IMG/VR virus record: IMGVR_UViG_3300036760_000733
Coordinates: 1-26,402 of that record
Strand: one strand, 5' to 3'
Length of the DNA: 26,402 bases
Source: a virus
Position 1 is the first letter of the stretch. Each line of letters starts with the position of its first letter. Below are positions 825 to 26,275 of this stretch, piece by piece. Under the pieces are notes generated by a model that was not told the DNA's origin, made no database searches, and saw only the letters and a program-made list of their open reading frames with translations. The translations under genes and the position numbers were made by a program.

Positions 825-987
825 TGGTATAGTATCTCTCCTCGCCTTGATGAAACTGGGGCTCAGTTACAGCGAAGCACTGGACTGTCCCCAGTATATG
901 GCCTCTCAGCTGATTGATTGCTACGTCGAAATTAATACCCCGCCTGATAAATCTGTGACGTATAAAGTACGAAGGCCTGAAAAATGA
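808..987 (+). CDS. Frameshift extension of the tail assembly chaperone (long-form C-terminus)
   Basis: The frame shifted +1 (equivalently -2) relative to 507-824 is open from 769 to the TGA at 985-987. It encodes a convincing helical segment (LALMKLGLSYSEALDCPQYM and about 25 more residues). Its only internal ATG, at 850, has no Shine-Dalgarno, so expression by recoding from the upstream frame is more likely than independent initiation. The TGA overlaps an ATG at 984, the original tape measure start now held in the first copy of a local duplication. The extension follows the pattern of G/G-T type tail chaperones. The exact slip site is not proven, so the left boundary is nominal. Confidence 0.6.
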   Translation, partial: SQSLRSGIVSLLALMKLGLSYSEALDCPQYMASQLIDCYVEINTPPDKSVTYKVRRPEK

Positions 988-1009
988 GTAAAGAACTCAA
1001 ATTAGCCAT
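948..1009 (+). repeat. 62-bp direct repeat, copy 1
   Basis: These bases are identical to 1038-1099. The unit contains the end of the chaperone extension, the AAGG-type ribosome binding site, and the first eight codons plus two bases of the tape measure gene. Copy 1 breaks into the 28-bp filler at 1010, turning the tape measure start at 984 into a nine-codon minicistron that stops at 1011-1013. Confidence 0.97.
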
Positions 1010-1013
1010 CTAA
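984..1013 (+). pseudogene. Truncated copy of the tape measure start (nine codons)
   Basis: ATG at 984 reads MSKELKLAI and then TAA at 1011-1013. The first eight codons and the upstream ribosome binding region are identical to the true tape measure start at 1074. It is a by-product of the 62-bp duplication and the inserted filler. Whether it is translated as a leader peptide is unknown. Confidence 0.7.
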
Positions 1014-1039
1014 CTTCGGATCAAAATGATACGAAGTTA
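1008..1039 (+). repeat. 32-bp segment identical to the inside of the ParB/methyltransferase gene (inverted copy)
   Basis: The 32 bases here equal the minus strand of 24891-24922, where they encode residues 113-123 of the ParB/methyltransferase protein. The outer two bases on each side also belong to the flanking 62-bp repeats, giving 2-bp microhomology at both junctions. The segment is an imperfect palindrome: 12-base arms (CTAACTTCG.. / ..CGAAGTTAG) with one mismatch and a 7-base centre. The last base of the right arm is A here and G in the gene copy. Confidence 0.95.
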
Positions 1040-1099
1040 AATCTGTGACGTATAAAGTACGAAGGCCTGAAAAATGAGTAAAGAACTCAAATTAGCCAT
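1038..1099 (+). repeat. 62-bp direct repeat, copy 2
   Basis: This is a perfect copy of 948-1009 at a 90-bp offset. It restores an intact ribosome binding site and ATG (1074) for the tape measure gene, so the duplication leaves a functional downstream gene. Confidence 0.97.
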
Positions 1100-10131: not shown

Positions 10132-11978
10132 TGTCTTTGATAAATCCTATTAAATATACTGTATACGGAGCTGTAGAGCCTACGTCTCGTTTACCTGTGA
10201 TCGAGGTCACGAGCGACGGCATGGCCTACGGTACTGTAGAGATACAGTTGCCTATACAGGGCGCTATAGTCACTGCGTCTGTATATCATTTGATGCCTCC
10301 AACCACTGATGAGTCTCGGTGGACTCGGCTACAGCCAGATATAGCTGTAGGATATCCACAGTGCATAGCTCATACTACGATTCAATTGAGCACGGGTAAT
10401 TATGAGATAGCTTGGCAGTTTTTACCTTCAGAGACTCCGTATGATTTCCATGGTACATATTATTCTATAGAATTTTTCGTCAACCGATCAGGTACCGCGG
10501 AGACTCCTCAGTCTGATCCAAAAATAATTATCTCTATACACAACGAGATAGACACTACAGGTGTGACGGGGTACGCGGGTGTCACTGGTTATGACAGCGT
10601 ATATCAAGGGCCCGCAGGAGCTACAGGGGTAAGAGGGCCTACAGGATACCAAGGTATAACCGGTACACAGGGATTTACTGGATCCCAAGGATTTACTGGA
10701 GCGCAGGGCAGTACTGGATCCCAAGGATTTACTGGAGCGCAGGGCAGTACTGGATTGCAAGGCCCTACAGGATGTCAGGGTGTTACAGGTCATTATGGTG
10801 TGGATGGGGCCACGGGAGCTCAAGGATTTACTGGAGCTCAGGGGTTAGCAGGCTTTACTGGATTAATAGGACCTACTGGATTACAGGGCAATACTGGATC
10901 TCAGGGATTTACTGGATCTCAAGGAAATACAGGAATAGGTTCTACAGGTTTTACTGGATTACAGGGCAATACTGGATCTCAAGGGCAAACAGGCTCTCAA
11001 GGTAATACAGGATTAATAGGTAATACGGGTTCTCAAGGTAATACAGGATTAATAGGTAATACGGGATCTCAAGGAAATACGGGTTCTCAAGGAAATACGG
11101 GTTCTCAAGGAAATACGGGTTCTCAAGGGAATATGGGTTCTCAAGGTAATACGGGTTCTCAAGGAAATACGGGTTCTCAAGGGAATATGGGTTCTCAAGG
11201 AAATACGGGTTCTCAAGGGAATATGGGTTCTCAAGGTAATACGGGATCTCAAGGTAATACGGGATCTCAAGGTAATACGGGTTCTAAAGGAAATACGGGT
11301 TCTCAAGGAAATGCGGGTTCTCAAGGAAATACTGGATTAATAGGAGTCACTGGAGTACAAGGTAATACTGGACTCCAAGGTAATACTGGACTCCAAGGAG
11401 TCATGGGTTTACAAGGTATTACTGGAGTAAAAGGTCAAACTGGAGCACAGGGATATACAGGCGGACAAGGTTTACAGGGAGTTGCCGGTCCTGCAGGAGC
11501 TACGGGGGTACAAGGGGCGGCTGGTCCAGGATTGGCAACGCAGGTAGGTTATAATACATCCAACCAGACCACCATAACAGTGTATCCTGTAGCCGTAAAT
11601 GGTTTGTCAGTATCTATAGTAGCTAATAAAAATTATGTGTTTGAAGGATATGTGGCAATAAGCCGCAATTCTCAGGCAAGTGACGTTCTTTTAGGTTTAA
11701 CAGGCCCATCGTCTCCTAATTATGTTCAAATACGCACTTTCGGAACATATTATTATGTCTCCAATTACGTAGATGCGTTTTCTCTCTCTGGTCCTGGATT
11801 TACATGGGGTTTGTTGGCTCGTCCCCCCGCAGCAAACGTTATCCAATACTATTACATACAAGGCATGATACAAAATGGATCCTACTCGGGTACTGTACAG
11901 CTTCAATTTGGTATAAGCGGTGGTAATACGGCCACTATCTATAGATGTTCATACATAAAAGTAATACAGGTGAACTGA
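10131..11978 (+). CDS. Collagen-like tail fibre protein 1
   Basis: A 615-residue protein in three parts. Residues 1 to about 140 are a beta-rich head shared with the next gene (SLINPIKYT, then IEVTSDGMAYGT and IQLP), probably the virion attachment domain. Residues about 143-467 are uninterrupted Gly-X-Y triplets, with Thr very often in the third position and a run of 15 near-identical GSQGNT hexapeptides. Residues about 468-615 are a strand-rich C-terminal domain likely to trimerise and bind the receptor. The collagen part should form a trimeric triple helix. Few prolines occur, so stability would come from Thr, charge or glycosylation. AAGGCGG precedes the ATG. The stop overlaps the next gene by one base (TGATG). 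Confidence 0.85.
   Translation: MSLINPIKYTVYGAVEPTSRLPVIEVTSDGMAYGTVEIQLPIQGAIVTASVYHLMPPTTDESRWTRLQPDIAVGYPQCIAHTTIQLSTGNYEIAWQFLPSETPYDFHGTYYSIEFFVNRSGTAETPQSDPKIIISIHNEIDTTGVTGYAGVTGYDSVYQGPAGATGVRGPTGYQGITGTQGFTGSQGFTGAQGSTGSQGFTGAQGSTGLQGPTGCQGVTGHYGVDGATGAQGFTGAQGLAGFTGLIGPTGLQGNTGSQGFTGSQGNTGIGSTGFTGLQGNTGSQGQTGSQGNTGLIGNTGSQGNTGLIGNTGSQGNTGSQGNTGSQGNTGSQGNMGSQGNTGSQGNTGSQGNMGSQGNTGSQGNMGSQGNTGSQGNTGSQGNTGSKGNTGSQGNAGSQGNTGLIGVTGVQGNTGLQGNTGLQGVMGLQGITGVKGQTGAQGYTGGQGLQGVAGPAGATGVQGAAGPGLATQVGYNTSNQTTITVYPVAVNGLSVSIVANKNYVFEGYVAISRNSQASDVLLGLTGPSSPNYVQIRTFGTYYYVSNYVDAFSLSGPGFTWGLLARPPAANVIQYYYIQGMIQNGSYSGTVQLQFGISGGNTATIYRCSYIKVIQVN
10680..10751 (+). repeat. 36-bp tandem repeat, two copies, in fibre 1
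   Basis: Two exact 36-bp copies encode two identical 12-residue blocks of Gly-X-Y triplets. Perfect identity at the DNA level indicates recent duplication. Confidence 0.9.
11064..11333 (+). repeat. Fifteen 18-bp tandem units encoding GSQGNT-type hexapeptides
   Basis: The units are in frame, beginning GGA/GGT TCT CAA GG(A/G/T) AAT. Most encode GSQGNT; variants encode GSQGNM (three), GSKGNT and GSQGNA. Near-identity makes copy-number change by slippage or recombination likely, which would alter fibre length without a frameshift. Confidence 0.95.
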
Positions 11979-14900
11979 TGTCACTCATAAATCCTATCAA
12001 GTACACGATTTTCAATCAGGTAGTACCATCCTCTAAACTGCCTATCATAGAGGTCACGAGTGATGGTATGGCCTACGGTACTATAGAGATACAACTACCA
12101 CTGCCAGATGCTAATGCGGTGACTGCACGGGTATATCAGATAGCTCCTCCGACCACTGAGGAGACTCGGTGGTCTCGTCTACAGCCAGAGCTATACGCAT
12201 TATATCCTGCGTGCCTGTCGTGGACTACTACTCAGCTGAGTACGGGATATTTCAAAATCACGTGGCAGTTTCTTCCTGGTGTACTGCCGTATGATCTCAA
12301 TGAAGCGTTTTTCTCTCTGGAATTTTTTGTAGATGCTGATCAGGCGGCTCCAAAACTCATAGTAAAAATTTCCAATGCTATTGACTATACAGGGCTAACA
12401 GGATTTCATGGATATACAGGTCTTGATTCTATACATCAGGGTTGTACTGGAGTGCAGGGTGACACTGGAGTGCAGGGTGACACTGGAGTGCAGGGAGTGC
12501 CTGGGTCCGCTACAGGATATCAGGGCATTACGGGCTTACAGGGGGTTCAGGGACAGACTGGCTTGCAGGGAATAACTGGACAACAGGGCGCTGCTGGTAT
12601 TACGGGTCAGCAGGGTGTAGCTGGAATAACTGGTATCGCTGGTATTACTGGTCAGCAGGGTGTAGCTGGAATAACTGGTACCGTCGGTATAACAGGAAAT
12701 CAAGGATCTCAAGGGATTACAGGAATAAAAGGAATAACCGGGTCCCAGGGAGTTCAAGGTAATACTGGTCTACATGGTATCACTGGTTTACAAGCGATAA
12801 CTGGATATCAGGGAATAACTGGTCAGCAAGGATCTCAAGGGATTACTGGGACTATAGGAATTACTGGTCTACATGGTATCACTGGGTTACAAGCGATAAC
12901 TGGATATCAGGGAATAACTGGTCAGCAAGGAGTGCTCGGGATTACTGGGACTATAGGAATTACTGGTTTACAAGGTATAACAGGACAGCAGGCAGTTACT
13001 GGATTACAAGGCATTACTGGCTTGCAAGGATCTCAGGGTATCACTGGCATAGTAGGAGTCACTGGTTTTCAGGGAGTGCAGGGTATTGCTGGGAACATAG
13101 GAATTACTGGTTTTCAGGGAGTGCAGGGTATTGCTGGGAACATAGGAATTACTGGTTTACAGGGGGCGCAAGGAAACACTGGAGTAATAGGAATTACAGG
13201 CTACCAAGGAGTGCAGGGTATTACGGGAACTGTAGGAATAACTGGTTCCCAGGGAGTACAGGGAATAACAGGCTATCAAGCCATTACAGGTTTTCAAGGG
13301 CCTGCTGGTTTACAAGGGATAACAGGCATATCTGGGGTACAGGGAATAACTGGTTCGCAGGGCATAGACGGTATAGAAGGTATAACAGGCTATCAAGGTA
13401 TCGTAGGAAATACAGGATTAAATGGAGTCCAAGGTTTAACTGGACTCCAAGGTATTACTGGGGCTCAGGCAATAACTGGATTACAAGGCCCTACAGGTTT
13501 ATATGGAATTACGGGTGTGGAAGGAATTACAGGTCTTCAGGGCATAACTGGAAACGATGGTGTGCAAGGAATAACTGGATACCAAGGATCCCAGGGTATA
13601 ACAGGTTTAAATGGAATACAGGGGACAACAGGTACTATTGGTATAACTGGAAATGACGGTCCTAAAGGGATAACAGGAATTCAGGGCTCGCAAGGTAATA
13701 CAGGTTTGGACGGGGTACAGGGAGTGACAGGTAATCAGGGCTCGCAAGGTAATACAGGTTTGGACGGGGTACAGGGAGTGACAGGTAATCAAGGTTCGCA
13801 GGGGACAACCGGCATACGAGGAATCACAGGCATTGATGGCGTGCAGGGCACTACTGGACTATCTGGAGTAACAGGCCTATCTGGAATAACAGGTATCGAC
13901 GGAGTAGTAGGAATAACTGGTTCCGATGGAGTAAAGGGTTTAACTGGTGATCAGGGTAATCAAGGTGATACTGGAATTATAGGGATTACTGGTTCAGACG
14001 GAGTAAAAGGCATAACTGGAATAGGCGGTCTCAAAGGCGTAACTGGTATCGATGGTCTGCAGGGAATAACTGGCGAGCAAGGCACAACTGGACTAGACGG
14101 AATAGCTGGAATTACGGGTATAGCAGGGATTACTGGAGCTACCTCAGGTGCCACTGGCGTAAAGGGTGACACGGGATCTCAGGGTGATACTGGCTCACAA
14201 GGCAATACAGGATCTCAAGGTAATACTGGTTTACAAGGTGCCACAGGAATCCAAGGACTTACTGGATCTCAAGGACAGACTGGAGCTCAAGGATATACAG
14301 GCGCTCAGGGATATACAGGTACTATAGGAGTGACCGGTAGTCAGGGGATCGGAGGGTATGGCAGTCCTCTGTATTTCAAGAACACTGCCGCGGGAGTATC
14401 AGGATCGTTTGGGCCTCTGGAGTCTTTATTACGTATACCAGCTGCAGATGTTGAGCACACGGATACCGTCACTGTATCTAACGTGCAAGGATTCACAGGG
14501 TCTCTTTTAGGAGGCCATGGATACATCACATCCAATTCGTATCCTGCCACTACGATCATACCTGCTGGCACATGGACATTTTTCGTTTATGCCTCGACTA
14601 GTGCGGTGGGAGCACGTGATCCTCGTCTAAAAATAGAGGTTCTGAAATACTCTGCCGCAGGTGCAGAAACCTCACTATTTATCACAGCCAATAGTAGCCA
14701 GCTGACCACAAGCACTGTGCTCTATACGGTAACATACACACAGTCATCAGACATCACGTTGGTGACTACAGACCGTTTGATAACACGTGTATGGGGTATA
14801 CAGAACGGTAATAACCAGACCTGCGATATCACGTATTACTACGAAGGTACTGCGCATACGTCCTATATCACATCTCCTATTGGGATAGGTATTGCAGGAG

Positions 14901-15664
14901 TCACAGGAGTATCAGGAGCCACTGGTATCCAAGGTGCAACGGGAATGGGCGCGACGGGTATGGGCGGGACACAGGGAGTCACGGGTGCTGGTGGAGTACA
15001 GGGAATAACAGGTATCCAAGGCATAACTGGTGCCAATGGAATACAAGGCATCACGGGTACCAATGGAATACAAGGCATCACGGGTACCAATGGAATACAA
15101 GGCATCACGGGTACCGATGGAATACAAGGAGTCACCGGGCAGAGCGGTGTACAGGGAATCACAGGCCTACAGGGCGTTACTGGATATCAGGCTATCACAG
15201 GATCGCAGGGAATCCAAGGAATCACTGGCCAAGCTGGAGTGCAGGGGATAACGGGAATTCAATCTCCTACAGGGCCTAATGGAATAACAGGACCTGCTGG
15301 AGGAGCTACTGGATTACCTGGTGCTCAGGGAGTGACTGGAGTAGTTGGCTTCGCTTTGTATGATGCTGGTATGTGTACAGGTCTGAATAAAATAATAGAC
15401 TGGTCAAACGGTAAAAAACAGACAGTTGCTCTTAATACTGGATGCACAGGATCCTACGTAGGATTTGCCAATTCTATTACTGGGGCCAATACCACGTTAG
15501 TGGTTACTGCGAGTGTAGCAGCTGGTATAAAAGGATTCACAGGAGTATATTGGCCAGGAGGAGTCGCTCCAACACTCTCAGCTACTGTTGCGTATGTTGA
15601 TCTGTTCGGTTTTTTCTATGATGGTACACACATCTATGGTATGGCATCGTTAGGTATGCGTTAG
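11978..15664 (+). CDS. Collagen-like tail fibre protein 2 (long, two collagen arms)
   Basis: A 1228-residue protein starting at ATG 11978, chosen because it aligns with the paralogous start MSLINPIKYT of fibre 1; an in-frame ATG at 11945 would add residues inside the previous gene. Domains: attachment head 1 to about 140; first collagen arm about 143-790, dominated by GIT, GIQ and GVQ triplets; non-collagen beta domain about 791-970; second collagen arm about 974-1124; C-terminal domain to 1228. It is therefore a knobbed fibre with an internal globule. Thr is the commonest third-position residue. Several in-frame DNA repeats show continuing expansion. It probably forms a homotrimer and contacts the cell surface. 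Confidence 0.85.
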   Translation: MSLINPIKYTIFNQVVPSSKLPIIEVTSDGMAYGTIEIQLPLPDANAVTARVYQIAPPTTEETRWSRLQPELYALYPACLSWTTTQLSTGYFKITWQFLPGVLPYDLNEAFFSLEFFVDADQAAPKLIVKISNAIDYTGLTGFHGYTGLDSIHQGCTGVQGDTGVQGDTGVQGVPGSATGYQGITGLQGVQGQTGLQGITGQQGAAGITGQQGVAGITGIAGITGQQGVAGITGTVGITGNQGSQGITGIKGITGSQGVQGNTGLHGITGLQAITGYQGITGQQGSQGITGTIGITGLHGITGLQAITGYQGITGQQGVLGITGTIGITGLQGITGQQAVTGLQGITGLQGSQGITGIVGVTGFQGVQGIAGNIGITGFQGVQGIAGNIGITGLQGAQGNTGVIGITGYQGVQGITGTVGITGSQGVQGITGYQAITGFQGPAGLQGITGISGVQGITGSQGIDGIEGITGYQGIVGNTGLNGVQGLTGLQGITGAQAITGLQGPTGLYGITGVEGITGLQGITGNDGVQGITGYQGSQGITGLNGIQGTTGTIGITGNDGPKGITGIQGSQGNTGLDGVQGVTGNQGSQGNTGLDGVQGVTGNQGSQGTTGIRGITGIDGVQGTTGLSGVTGLSGITGIDGVVGITGSDGVKGLTGDQGNQGDTGIIGITGSDGVKGITGIGGLKGVTGIDGLQGITGEQGTTGLDGIAGITGIAGITGATSGATGVKGDTGSQGDTGSQGNTGSQGNTGLQGATGIQGLTGSQGQTGAQGYTGAQGYTGTIGVTGSQGIGGYGSPLYFKNTAAGVSGSFGPLESLLRIPAADVEHTDTVTVSNVQGFTGSLLGGHGYITSNSYPATTIIPAGTWTFFVYASTSAVGARDPRLKIEVLKYSAAGAETSLFITANSSQLTTSTVLYTVTYTQSSDITLVTTDRLITRVWGIQNGNNQTCDITYYYEGTAHTSYITSPIGIGIAGVTGVSGATGIQGATGMGATGMGGTQGVTGAGGVQGITGIQGITGANGIQGITGTNGIQGITGTNGIQGITGTDGIQGVTGQSGVQGITGLQGVTGYQAITGSQGIQGITGQAGVQGITGIQSPTGPNGITGPAGGATGLPGAQGVTGVVGFALYDAGMCTGLNKIIDWSNGKKQTVALNTGCTGSYVGFANSITGANTTLVVTASVAAGIKGFTGVYWPGGVAPTLSATVAYVDLFGFFYDGTHIYGMASLGMR
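12764..12961 (+). repeat. 99-bp tandem repeat, two near-identical copies, in fibre 2
   Basis: Two adjacent 99-bp copies (12764-12862 and 12863-12961) encode 33-residue blocks of Gly-X-Y triplets and differ at only a few bases. Confidence 0.85.
13061..13150 (+). repeat. 45-bp tandem repeat, two exact copies, in fibre 2
   Basis: Copies at 13061-13105 and 13106-13150 are identical and in frame, encoding 15-residue collagen blocks. Confidence 0.9.
13681..13788 (+). repeat. 54-bp tandem repeat, two exact copies, in fibre 2
   Basis: Copies at 13681-13734 and 13735-13788 are identical and in frame (18 residues each, around GNTGLDGVQGVTGNQ). Confidence 0.9.
15032..15139 (+). repeat. 27-bp tandem repeat, four units, in fibre 2
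   Basis: Units encode the nonapeptide (A/T)NGIQGITG. Units 1-3 are nearly identical in DNA; the fourth is diverged (TDGIQGVTG). They lie in the second collagen arm. Confidence 0.9.
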
Positions 15665-23530: not shown

Positions 23531-24085
23531 TTATTTCAAACTTTCTATAATAGAACTTATATCTATGTCATCATCAGATATTCGGTTCACATCAACAATA
23601 TGTTTAGCATATACATCTGAATAATGTTGTCCTGAAAAAGGACCGTTTTTAAATACCAAATAATCTATTTCTACGGTATTAGGATTTTTACCATGTAGTA
23701 CGCATATAATTGCTTTAAGCAATTTGATATTACATACCAATCGTCCATCATAAAAATAACATAAGTCTTTTTTTCCTTCTTTTTTTATACCTTTTATTAT
23801 TCTATCATATTTGTTTAGTGGTTCTATTGAAAATATTGTACCAGAACTATTATACCGTAGACAATAGAAAGGTACTTTACACATATCAGCAACATAAATA
23901 AACGGTTTTCTTTGCCAATTATCGTGGCGTGTATCGAGTCCTTTTTTCCATTCAAATAACGCTACAGGGCGGTTGTGCTCTATTTCTAAACAATCCAAAT
24001 CGGACATAGTCAATCGAGATCCAAGAACTCTATGTAAAGACGACATCATCATTTCTCTATCACCATGACGTTCTTCATTACCCAT
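23531..24085 (-). CDS. Possible PD-(D/E)XK nuclease-like protein
   Basis: A 184-residue protein. ATG 24085 is preferred over the adjacent GTG because AAGGAGG lies 6 bases before it. Residues 28-48 read SDLDCLEIEHNRPVALFEWK plus K, giving an acidic strand followed by E-x-K (E45-W-K47). This is the active-site shape of PD-(D/E)XK nucleases. WQRKPFIYVADMCKVPFYCL follows, a helix and strand usual after the motif. The gene is clearly more AT-rich than its neighbours, with many AAA/ATA codons, suggesting separate acquisition. It overlaps the ParB/methyltransferase gene by 8 bases, so it could be the cutting partner of that enzyme. The fold is inferred by eye. Confidence 0.5.
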   Translation of the reverse strand: MGNEERHGDREMMMSSLHRVLGSRLTMSDLDCLEIEHNRPVALFEWKKGLDTRHDNWQRKPFIYVADMCKVPFYCLRYNSSGTIFSIEPLNKYDRIIKGIKKEGKKDLCYFYDGRLVCNIKLLKAIICVLHGKNPNTVEIDYLVFKNGPFSGQHYSDVYAKHIVDVNRISDDDIDISSIIESLK

Positions 24086-25259
24086 CACATACCTCCTTGT
24101 ATCGACCGTTTGATATATCTACATTCTCCTGAGACAAGTCAATGCCGTAATAAATGCAGCCGTGTCGGTAAGCCGAGATGCCTGTCGTACTCGCTCCTGC
24201 AAACGGATCGAGTATGCTTTCACCCGGTACACATATTTGAGATATGATAGACAGCATACCGCTCTCAGATTGACCCCACTTATGAAGCGATTTATCATTG
24301 GCGTCTGATGTAAATACGTCTCCGAAAATCTTGCCCTTGTACTTAGCATTTGGTAGCGTCCACATGAGTAGCGGCTTCCAGCAACAGTTTACCTGACGTG
24401 TACGCAGTGGCGTAGGCTGTCCCGGGAGTAGATATGCCGCGGTCCAATAATACTCCAGATGTTTAGCCATGAGCGCGTAGATCTCATCCAGATATGATTG
24501 ACCGCACATGCAGATCAACAGGCCGTTTGGCTTGAGAAAATCTTTGGCTCTTGAGGCGAGCGTATCATAGAGCGGTACAAACTCTTTAAGATAAGGCGGA
24601 TCTGTAATGATGTAGTCGAATTTTTTATCCGTTTTGTATGTGGCTATATCGCCGTGATCTACACACCAGCGATCGGTTTTGGGCAGAGCCCGGGCTTTGT
24701 CAGCGAGCTTCGTTCTCTCTTTTTTGATCTCCGCTGTGCGTATTTCTTTCTCGATTTTTTTGATAGGCACACGATCACGAATAGCTTTCATGAGCTCTGG
24801 TTTTGCTTCTATGTCACGAGCGAATGCTGCGTCCCTTTTAACTGTAGCTGCACTTACTCCAGATGATCTAGCTATACGTTTAGCTCTGTCTAACTTCGTA
24901 TCATTTTGATCCGAAGTTAGATCATTTCTTTTTCCTTGTTCACTCTCAGTCCGATTGTATAGTCGTCCGCGCAGCAGCCGCATCATGTCTGGTGATAGGT
25001 TCCGACGACCGAGCTGATTAGAATCAATCCAATCCAACGCGGCAACTCTATCAGTCAGACTGATCATCCTCGATTTATAGGATATCTGGTTTTTGGTACA
25101 GATCTCGTAGCGGTTATGCCCGTCAAGCAATGTATTCTCTTCCTCCCAGACAACTAACGCATCCCGGCACCCGTCCCGGATGATGTTTTTTTCCAGTAAT
25201 GCCCTCTCCTCGTTAGCCAAAGGAAATATCAATGACTGGAACTCTTTATCGATTTTCAC
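24078..25259 (-). CDS. ParB-domain / DNA N4- or N6-methyltransferase fusion
   Basis: A 393-residue protein starting at GTG 25259 with AAAAAGGAG upstream. The N-terminal ParB/Srx-like domain has LLDGHNRYEICTK (44-56) and a helix-turn-helix AKRIARSSGVSAATVKRDAA (126-145). The methyltransferase domain has catalytic TDPPYL (219-224) preceding the cofactor-binding DPFAGASTTG (351-360), the beta-class order, with target recognition between. It methylates adenine N6 or cytosine N4. Phages carry such enzymes to protect their DNA or alter regulation. Residues 113-123 are encoded by the 32-base segment that also occurs, inverted, at 1008-1039. Confidence 0.85.
   Translation of the reverse strand: MKIDKEFQSLIFPLANEERALLEKNIIRDGCRDALVVWEEENTLLDGHNRYEICTKNQISYKSRMISLTDRVAALDWIDSNQLGRRNLSPDMMRLLRGRLYNRTESEQGKRNDLTSDQNDTKLDRAKRIARSSGVSAATVKRDAAFARDIEAKPELMKAIRDRVPIKKIEKEIRTAEIKKERTKLADKARALPKTDRWCVDHGDIATYKTDKKFDYIITDPPYLKEFVPLYDTLASRAKDFLKPNGLLICMCGQSYLDEIYALMAKHLEYYWTAAYLLPGQPTPLRTRQVNCCWKPLLMWTLPNAKYKGKIFGDVFTSDANDKSLHKWGQSESGMLSIISQICVPGESILDPFAGASTTGISAYRHGCIYYGIDLSQENVDISNGRYKEVCDG
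24891..24922 (-). repeat. Source copy of the 32-bp segment shared with 1008-1039
   Basis: The minus strand here equals the plus strand of 1008-1039 over 32 bases. It is in frame within the ParB/methyltransferase gene (encoding DLTSDQNDTKL), which makes this the likely original. Extended by one base on the plus-strand 5' side (24890), it is an imperfect palindrome with 12-base arms and a 7-base centre. Confidence 0.95.
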
Positions 25260-25742: not shown

Positions 25743-26275
25743 AACATCTCCTTCTTGGTAAGTGATATACGTATCTCCGACATGAGCGCCGCGAAATCTT
25801 TTTTGGCTTTCGGAGCCTCCCACAGGTAATCTGGTCGTATCTTCTGGGGTATGATGCAGCTCTTGTACCTATCATGCATATTTCGGATATACAGGTCTTC
25901 ATTCATATTAAGAGTGAACTTGGTGATCTGAGTGATACCGGGCTGCCCTTTGGCGGCCTGCCACACGTTGGCGGTTATCTGTCGTGATACACAGGCATCG
26001 AGAAGATTCTGGTAGGTAAAAGCAAGGAACACTGGATCGTTATAGGATATGTCGATGCCACTGAGTTCCTTGAGGAACTCAGCCAATACGGGAGATTTGA
26101 GGTGCAGGGATGGACTGCAGACTATGCGGTGACGCGCCGTGGTAGAACGCTTCTTGCCGTGAAAATATAGGATGACCTGATCTTTGTTGTTATCTCTGGA
26201 TCCGCATAGCACATCAAAACATACCAAATGATTACCAGCGACTCCAGTACCTGGAGCCTCATCATTACACCACAT
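25739..26275 (-). CDS. Hypothetical protein (178 aa)
   Basis: ATG 26275 has GGAGG at a 6-base spacing. The protein has a Cys-rich N-terminus (MWCNDE...VCFDVLCGSRD), a basic strand-rich part (QVILYFHGKKRSTTARHRIV) and a helical, Lys-rich C-terminus. No catalytic motif stands out. Family not recognised. It overlaps the following gene by ATGA. Confidence 0.6.
   Translation of the reverse strand: MWCNDEAPGTGVAGNHLVCFDVLCGSRDNNKDQVILYFHGKKRSTTARHRIVCSPSLHLKSPVLAEFLKELSGIDISYNDPVFLAFTYQNLLDACVSRQITANVWQAAKGQPGITQITKFTLNMNEDLYIRNMHDRYKSCIIPQKIRPDYLWEAPKAKKDFAALMSEIRISLTKKEML

Follow-up and report, generated by a model that had tools for sequence, protein, structure and literature searches.

What is the short stretch of DNA that separates two identical copies of a gene start in a phage tail operon, and why is the same stretch found inside a gene at the other end of the sequence? 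The window analysed here is a virus record of 26,402 bases whose tail module is that of a contractile-tailed phage of Mu- or P2-like type, with genes for a chaperone, tape measure, baseplate hub, gp25-like wedge and baseplate J, and a ParB-methyltransferase gene on the opposite strand. The tail assembly chaperone is encoded at 507–824 on the plus strand (phrog_508), with a frame-shifted extension to 987 (507–987 as a whole), the stop codon of which overlaps the first ATG (984). The tape measure protein (606 aa) is encoded at 1074–2894, also on the plus strand. A search for close relatives of the tail module found none.

The extension of the chaperone gene is read in the +1 (or −2) frame, an arrangement shared with Mu-like phages that use a −2 programmed frameshift; A AAA AAG is present at the place expected for the shift, but a −1 shift there would lead to an early stop. 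Further along, among the tail fibre genes (10616–15300), are two long collagen-like repeat proteins (G-X-Y, TGxQG) with 9- and 18-base periods. A dispersed 20-bp direct repeat with one mismatch (12410–12429 and 25885–25904) may be due to chance.

Duplication and templated filler at the tape measure start

A sequence-only reading of this locus had proposed a 62-bp duplication, and the two plus-strand copies, 948–1009 and 1038–1099, do agree at 62/62 positions, with a period of 90. Copy 1 contains the 3′ end of the chaperone extension, the ATGA overlap and the first tape measure codons, while copy 2 contains the tape measure start in use. The 28-bp filler between them (1010–1037, plus strand), taken with two bases on each side (1008–1039), was said to equal the minus strand of 24891–24922 within the ParB/methyltransferase gene; the match is exact (32/32). 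Exact matches of at least 32 bp are expected by chance about 4e-11 times in the window, counting both strands, and the next-longest exact repeat, leaving out the collagen-like genes and the event itself, is 15 bp. The further claim that both genes stay intact and a nine-codon minicistron is left behind also holds: the minicistron (MSKELKLAI and a stop, 984–1013, plus strand) runs from copy 1 into the filler, and the tape measure is read from 1074. A putative four-codon open frame (MIRS and a stop, 1026–1040, plus strand) lies in the filler, and no promoter or terminator was found there. Because the duplication restored a complete tape measure start, the insertion cost no gene.

Comparison of the flanking bases gives exactly 2 bp in common at each join, AT at 1008–1009 and TA at 1038–1039. 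These microhomologies had been taken as the mark of template switching or end joining; they are present at both joins, but are weak evidence by themselves, since at least two shared bases at one join arise by chance in about 1/6 of joins (our own calculation). The locus combines a filler that matches a remote template exactly with short overlaps on either side, as a templated insertion by template switching would. Template switching or end joining is known to give tandem duplications with templated insertions, and the locus resembles these in its short direct duplication, its templated filler and its 2-bp overlaps.

The filler as a copied palindrome

The filler is a near-perfect palindrome, with a DNA fold of −9.5 kcal/mol (z −5.5); this had gone unnoticed in the earlier reading. 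Its 27-bp dyad, AACTTCGGATCAAAATGATACGAAGTT (1012–1038, plus strand), is a second copy of one in the ParB-methyltransferase gene (24892–24918, minus strand). No 27-mer in the whole 26.4 kb window other than donor and filler reaches 11 of 13 self-complementary pairs, and no 32-nt hairpin on the donor's strand is stronger than the donor itself. Copying stopped only a few bases from the hairpin foot; the copy contains the full dyad and not much more. A random 32-bp donor stretch would include the window's strong palindrome with a chance of about 2e-4 (6 of 26,371 positions), a figure that serves as a guide only, because the palindrome was spotted after the fact. The proposal of a templated insertion is therefore supported as regards copying from the ParB/methyltransferase gene, but not as regards an arbitrary 28-bp filler: unlike usual templated insertions, this one is a single whole conserved palindrome.

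The donor gene (24078–25259, minus strand) encodes a 393-aa fusion of a ParB fold with an N6/N4 DNA methyltransferase. Its protein product matches 5k5d/5k5a by sequence profile, and pNOB8-like ParB-N and Spo0J by fold. The predicted structure of the first 200 residues has a mean pLDDT of 89.9 and is confident except for the disordered loop encoded by the dyad (approximately residues 114–123), which sits between a long helix and the helix-turn-helix. Taken together, the profile, the fold match and the helices after the linker indicate that the protein next to the dyad is a ParB with a DNA-binding helix-turn-helix. The fusion may not necessarily be a partition protein, and no obvious ParA partner is present in the window, which is a fragment. 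ParB-CTPase-fold/N6_N4 methyltransferase fusions of the same architecture occur in phages (PMC12704722); the survey describing them covers their domains and nucleotide binding, and a text search of it gave no mention of a palindrome. In well-studied cases, the ParB fold loads on a site and spreads as a nucleotide-driven clamp (PMC12704722, PMC7383237).

Conservation of the dyad in ParB genes of bacteria, plasmids and integrative elements

A scan of 84,980 genomes with the palindrome returned one match, which occupies the equivalent position of a further parB gene, and a looser pattern applied to 391 genomes of the same class returned further matches in parB genes that were independently found by protein search. 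As homologous ParB genes have the palindrome at the same place, the copy in the ParB-methyltransferase gene is the original. We aligned 41 non-redundant ParB genes by protein and compared their DNA around one fixed codon, with synonymous-codon shuffling as the null. Paired positions numbered 440 of 574, versus 249 ± 9.5 in the shuffles, which is not a formal probability because ParB genes are related. Five of the genes had come to light by way of the palindrome pattern; when they are left out, 372 of 504 positions are paired, versus about 215 expected. Pairing is high at offsets 1–13 and at background from offset 14, with compensating changes at offsets 4–8 and 11, where both partners vary (CG, AT, TA and GC at 4–8). 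Two genes, L008 and L010, scored low in this count through misplacement by the protein-anchored alignment, and a register search located their dyads. Symmetry was tested separately for each gene, and arm sequences differ widely among genes. Palindromic DNA is thus found inside or near the genes of ParB-family proteins, while chromosomal ParB/Noc proteins lack the linker segment. A search of Clostridia genomes for additional phage-type ParB genes gave two matches only. Three Clostridia-type genomes (L100, L101 and L102) carry 32-bp palindromes, TAACTTCGCTAAAT....ATTTAGCGAAGTTA, that are distinct from the parB palindrome.

Conservation of the dyad in phage ParB genes

Viral contigs scanned with the ParB part of the donor yielded 80 relatives, and 63 distinct genes were tested. 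The linker before the helix-turn-helix is significantly symmetric in 45 of the 63 phage ParB-like genes, with 0/63 and 2/63 in control regions; about one third of the genes have no significant dyad. The arms are unrelated between phages. One core, GGACAAAATGTCC, is read in one frame in L234 and in another in L230 and L232, and so the protein cannot explain the symmetry. The shuffles, the control regions and this core in two frames all indicate that it is selection at the DNA level, not the protein code, that keeps the symmetry.

The phage proteins L201 and L205 are identical at 101 of 105 residues in the N-terminal part and 166 of 182 in the C-terminal part, but at only 20 of 50 across the linker and helix-turn-helix, and their dyad arms differ. 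This pattern is what would be expected if a site and its reader change together. L201, L203 and L205 have near-identical ParB proteins in which the linker and helix-turn-helix have apparently been exchanged as a cassette, along with the dyad.

A probable parS-like site beside its reader

A ParB binding site next to its own reader would look like this, if the symmetry, the cassette exchange, the position of the loop and the ParB fold are considered together. On these comparative grounds, the best reading of the conserved donor palindrome is a parS-like binding site that lies within parB, and the joint change of site and helix-turn-helix points, if indirectly, to specific binding by ParB. What seemed to be random repair debris in the tail operon is then most likely a copied putative ParB binding site. 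We found no description in the literature of a general pattern of linker dyads in ParB genes.

The dyad resembles parS of ParABS systems in being a palindromic DNA site tied to a helix-turn-helix protein of the ParB family. Lin and Grossman are said to have reported, in 1998, a parS site inside the spo0J (parB) gene of B. subtilis, and the location within parB is thus known for one chromosomal system. Unlike chromosomal parS, to which it has no sequence relationship, the putative site is a dyad of 27 bp that has one fixed position in mobile-element ParB genes, in the linker that precedes the helix-turn-helix, and that varies in sequence while its symmetry is kept.

The donor arm also matches the Cre/loxP arm ATAACTTCGTATA at 11 of 13 bases. 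A loxP site was rejected, as the spacing between 13-bp arms is 5 and not 8, and the arms vary freely among ParB homologues; the likeness comes from the DLTS...TKL codons and is due to chance. The loxP-like pattern AACTTCGTAT...ATACGAAGTT occurs in 77 IMG/VR contigs (L016–L092), and the four that we examined (L016, L021, L027 and L038) contain exact or near-exact loxP, probably as remnants of mate-pair sequencing linkers unrelated to the dyad.

How the second copy may have arisen

We favour, at somewhat better than even confidence, the view that a template switch produced the filler as a further copy of a parS-like 27-bp dyad, of the kind found in the linker of phage, plasmid and integrative-element ParB genes. 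The joins are most simply explained by a probable two-step switch. In this scheme, a nascent strand at the border of chaperone and tape measure would have moved to the ParB-methyltransferase gene and copied its palindrome almost end to end; self-folding of the copy could then have freed the 3′ end, and the strand would have re-annealed 62 bp behind its point of departure, giving the order copy–dyad–copy with both genes intact. Since the copies show no difference, the event is either recent or an artefact.

The second dyad, 24 kb away from the original, may bring a benefit by giving the late operon a loading or regulatory site of its own, and by analogy with known clamps a clamp-borne methyltransferase could be guided along the phage DNA. 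On the window alone, a neutral copy is about equally consistent. A recent neutral accident of repair or replication, in which hairpin DNA stalled the polymerase and attracted template switches and the second dyad is inert, is a serious contender that we place at roughly one chance in three. The lack of differences in the 62-bp copies and the filler fits such a recent accident, as do the end of the copied stretch so near the hairpin foot and the strength of the donor hairpin on its own strand. It leaves the conservation of the dyad unexplained, although it need not account for it.

The distribution of further copies also bears on this. We looked for copies of each element's own dyad outside parB in bacterial ParB neighbourhoods and two plasmids, where 20 of 22 stretches contained a dyad of the set, and in phage contigs. 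Apart from the window, none was found in the stretches examined, with one dyad per element, as a neutral accident would predict; a second site outside parB is thus unusual and not a general requirement. Clear second copies occur only in the window and in L235 (IMGVR_UViG_3300010354_016385), where parB contains two tandem, in-frame copies of its dyad at about 10342–10415, with a 42-bp period. This tandem dyad is an independent copying of such a dyad. Two 19/27 dyad matches, in L213 and L288, were taken as chance.

A library, amplification or assembly artefact, in which a chimera with two template switches became the consensus, is unlikely. The event is known from one contig and its copies are perfect, and template switching in multiple displacement amplification (MDA) often uses 2–21 complementary bases (PMC1855051). 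However, most chimeras in that study had a single join, 85% of the chimeras were inversions, and segments less than 10 kb apart were favoured, whereas here there are two joins, which return to the starting locus from a donor 24 kb distant, and both genes stay intact. In addition, an assembler needs reads that contain the joins, and a single molecule would seldom dominate the consensus.

Alternative natures of the dyad

The dyad could instead be an RNA hairpin, or another nucleic-acid structure with a role in translation control or mRNA processing, and not a protein site. Transcription reads both copies in the same, sense direction, and the central three bases of the phage dyads are mostly unpaired (AAA), resembling a hairpin loop. 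However, imperfect pairs on the sense strand are A-C in 35 cases and G-T in 14, the reverse of what an mRNA hairpin would be expected to tolerate; bacterial pairing reaches offset 1, which a hairpin could not use; and there is no Rfam match. We consider this explanation improbable.

Least probable, to the point of being doubtful at best, is a short palindromic mobile element with insertions in ParB genes and elsewhere: the chromosomal ParB/Noc proteins without the segment, the copy in the window and the tandem in L235 would suit it, but in the 20 bacterial neighbourhoods and in the phage contigs examined, the window excepted, no copy lies outside parB, and the same codon position is occupied in very different ParB genes despite unrelated arms, so that the palindrome is inherited and co-diversifying, not repeatedly inserted. 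Exact and loosened patterns for a widespread mobile palindrome in viral contigs gave 0, 1 (a chance match) and 0 hits.

Implications for ParB proteins of mobile elements

The parS-like reading can be taken further, though only tentatively and at clearly less than even confidence. Mobile-element ParB genes may carry a predicted landing site beside the code for the helix that reads it, the two being inherited and changing as one cassette, and this phage may have copied its site 24 kb away to the tail operon as a second loading or control point for a ParB-guided methyltransferase.

If the dyads are binding sites, they provide a testable rule, namely that, for most of the mobile-element ParB genes examined, the gene's own sequence reveals the probable binding site. 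Such a rule would make it possible to predict DNA targets for hundreds of ParB proteins of phages and plasmids that are as yet uncharacterised, the ParB-methyltransferase fusions among them, and would allow the joint change of a DNA-binding protein and its site to be studied. The window would then be a natural case of such a site copied elsewhere.
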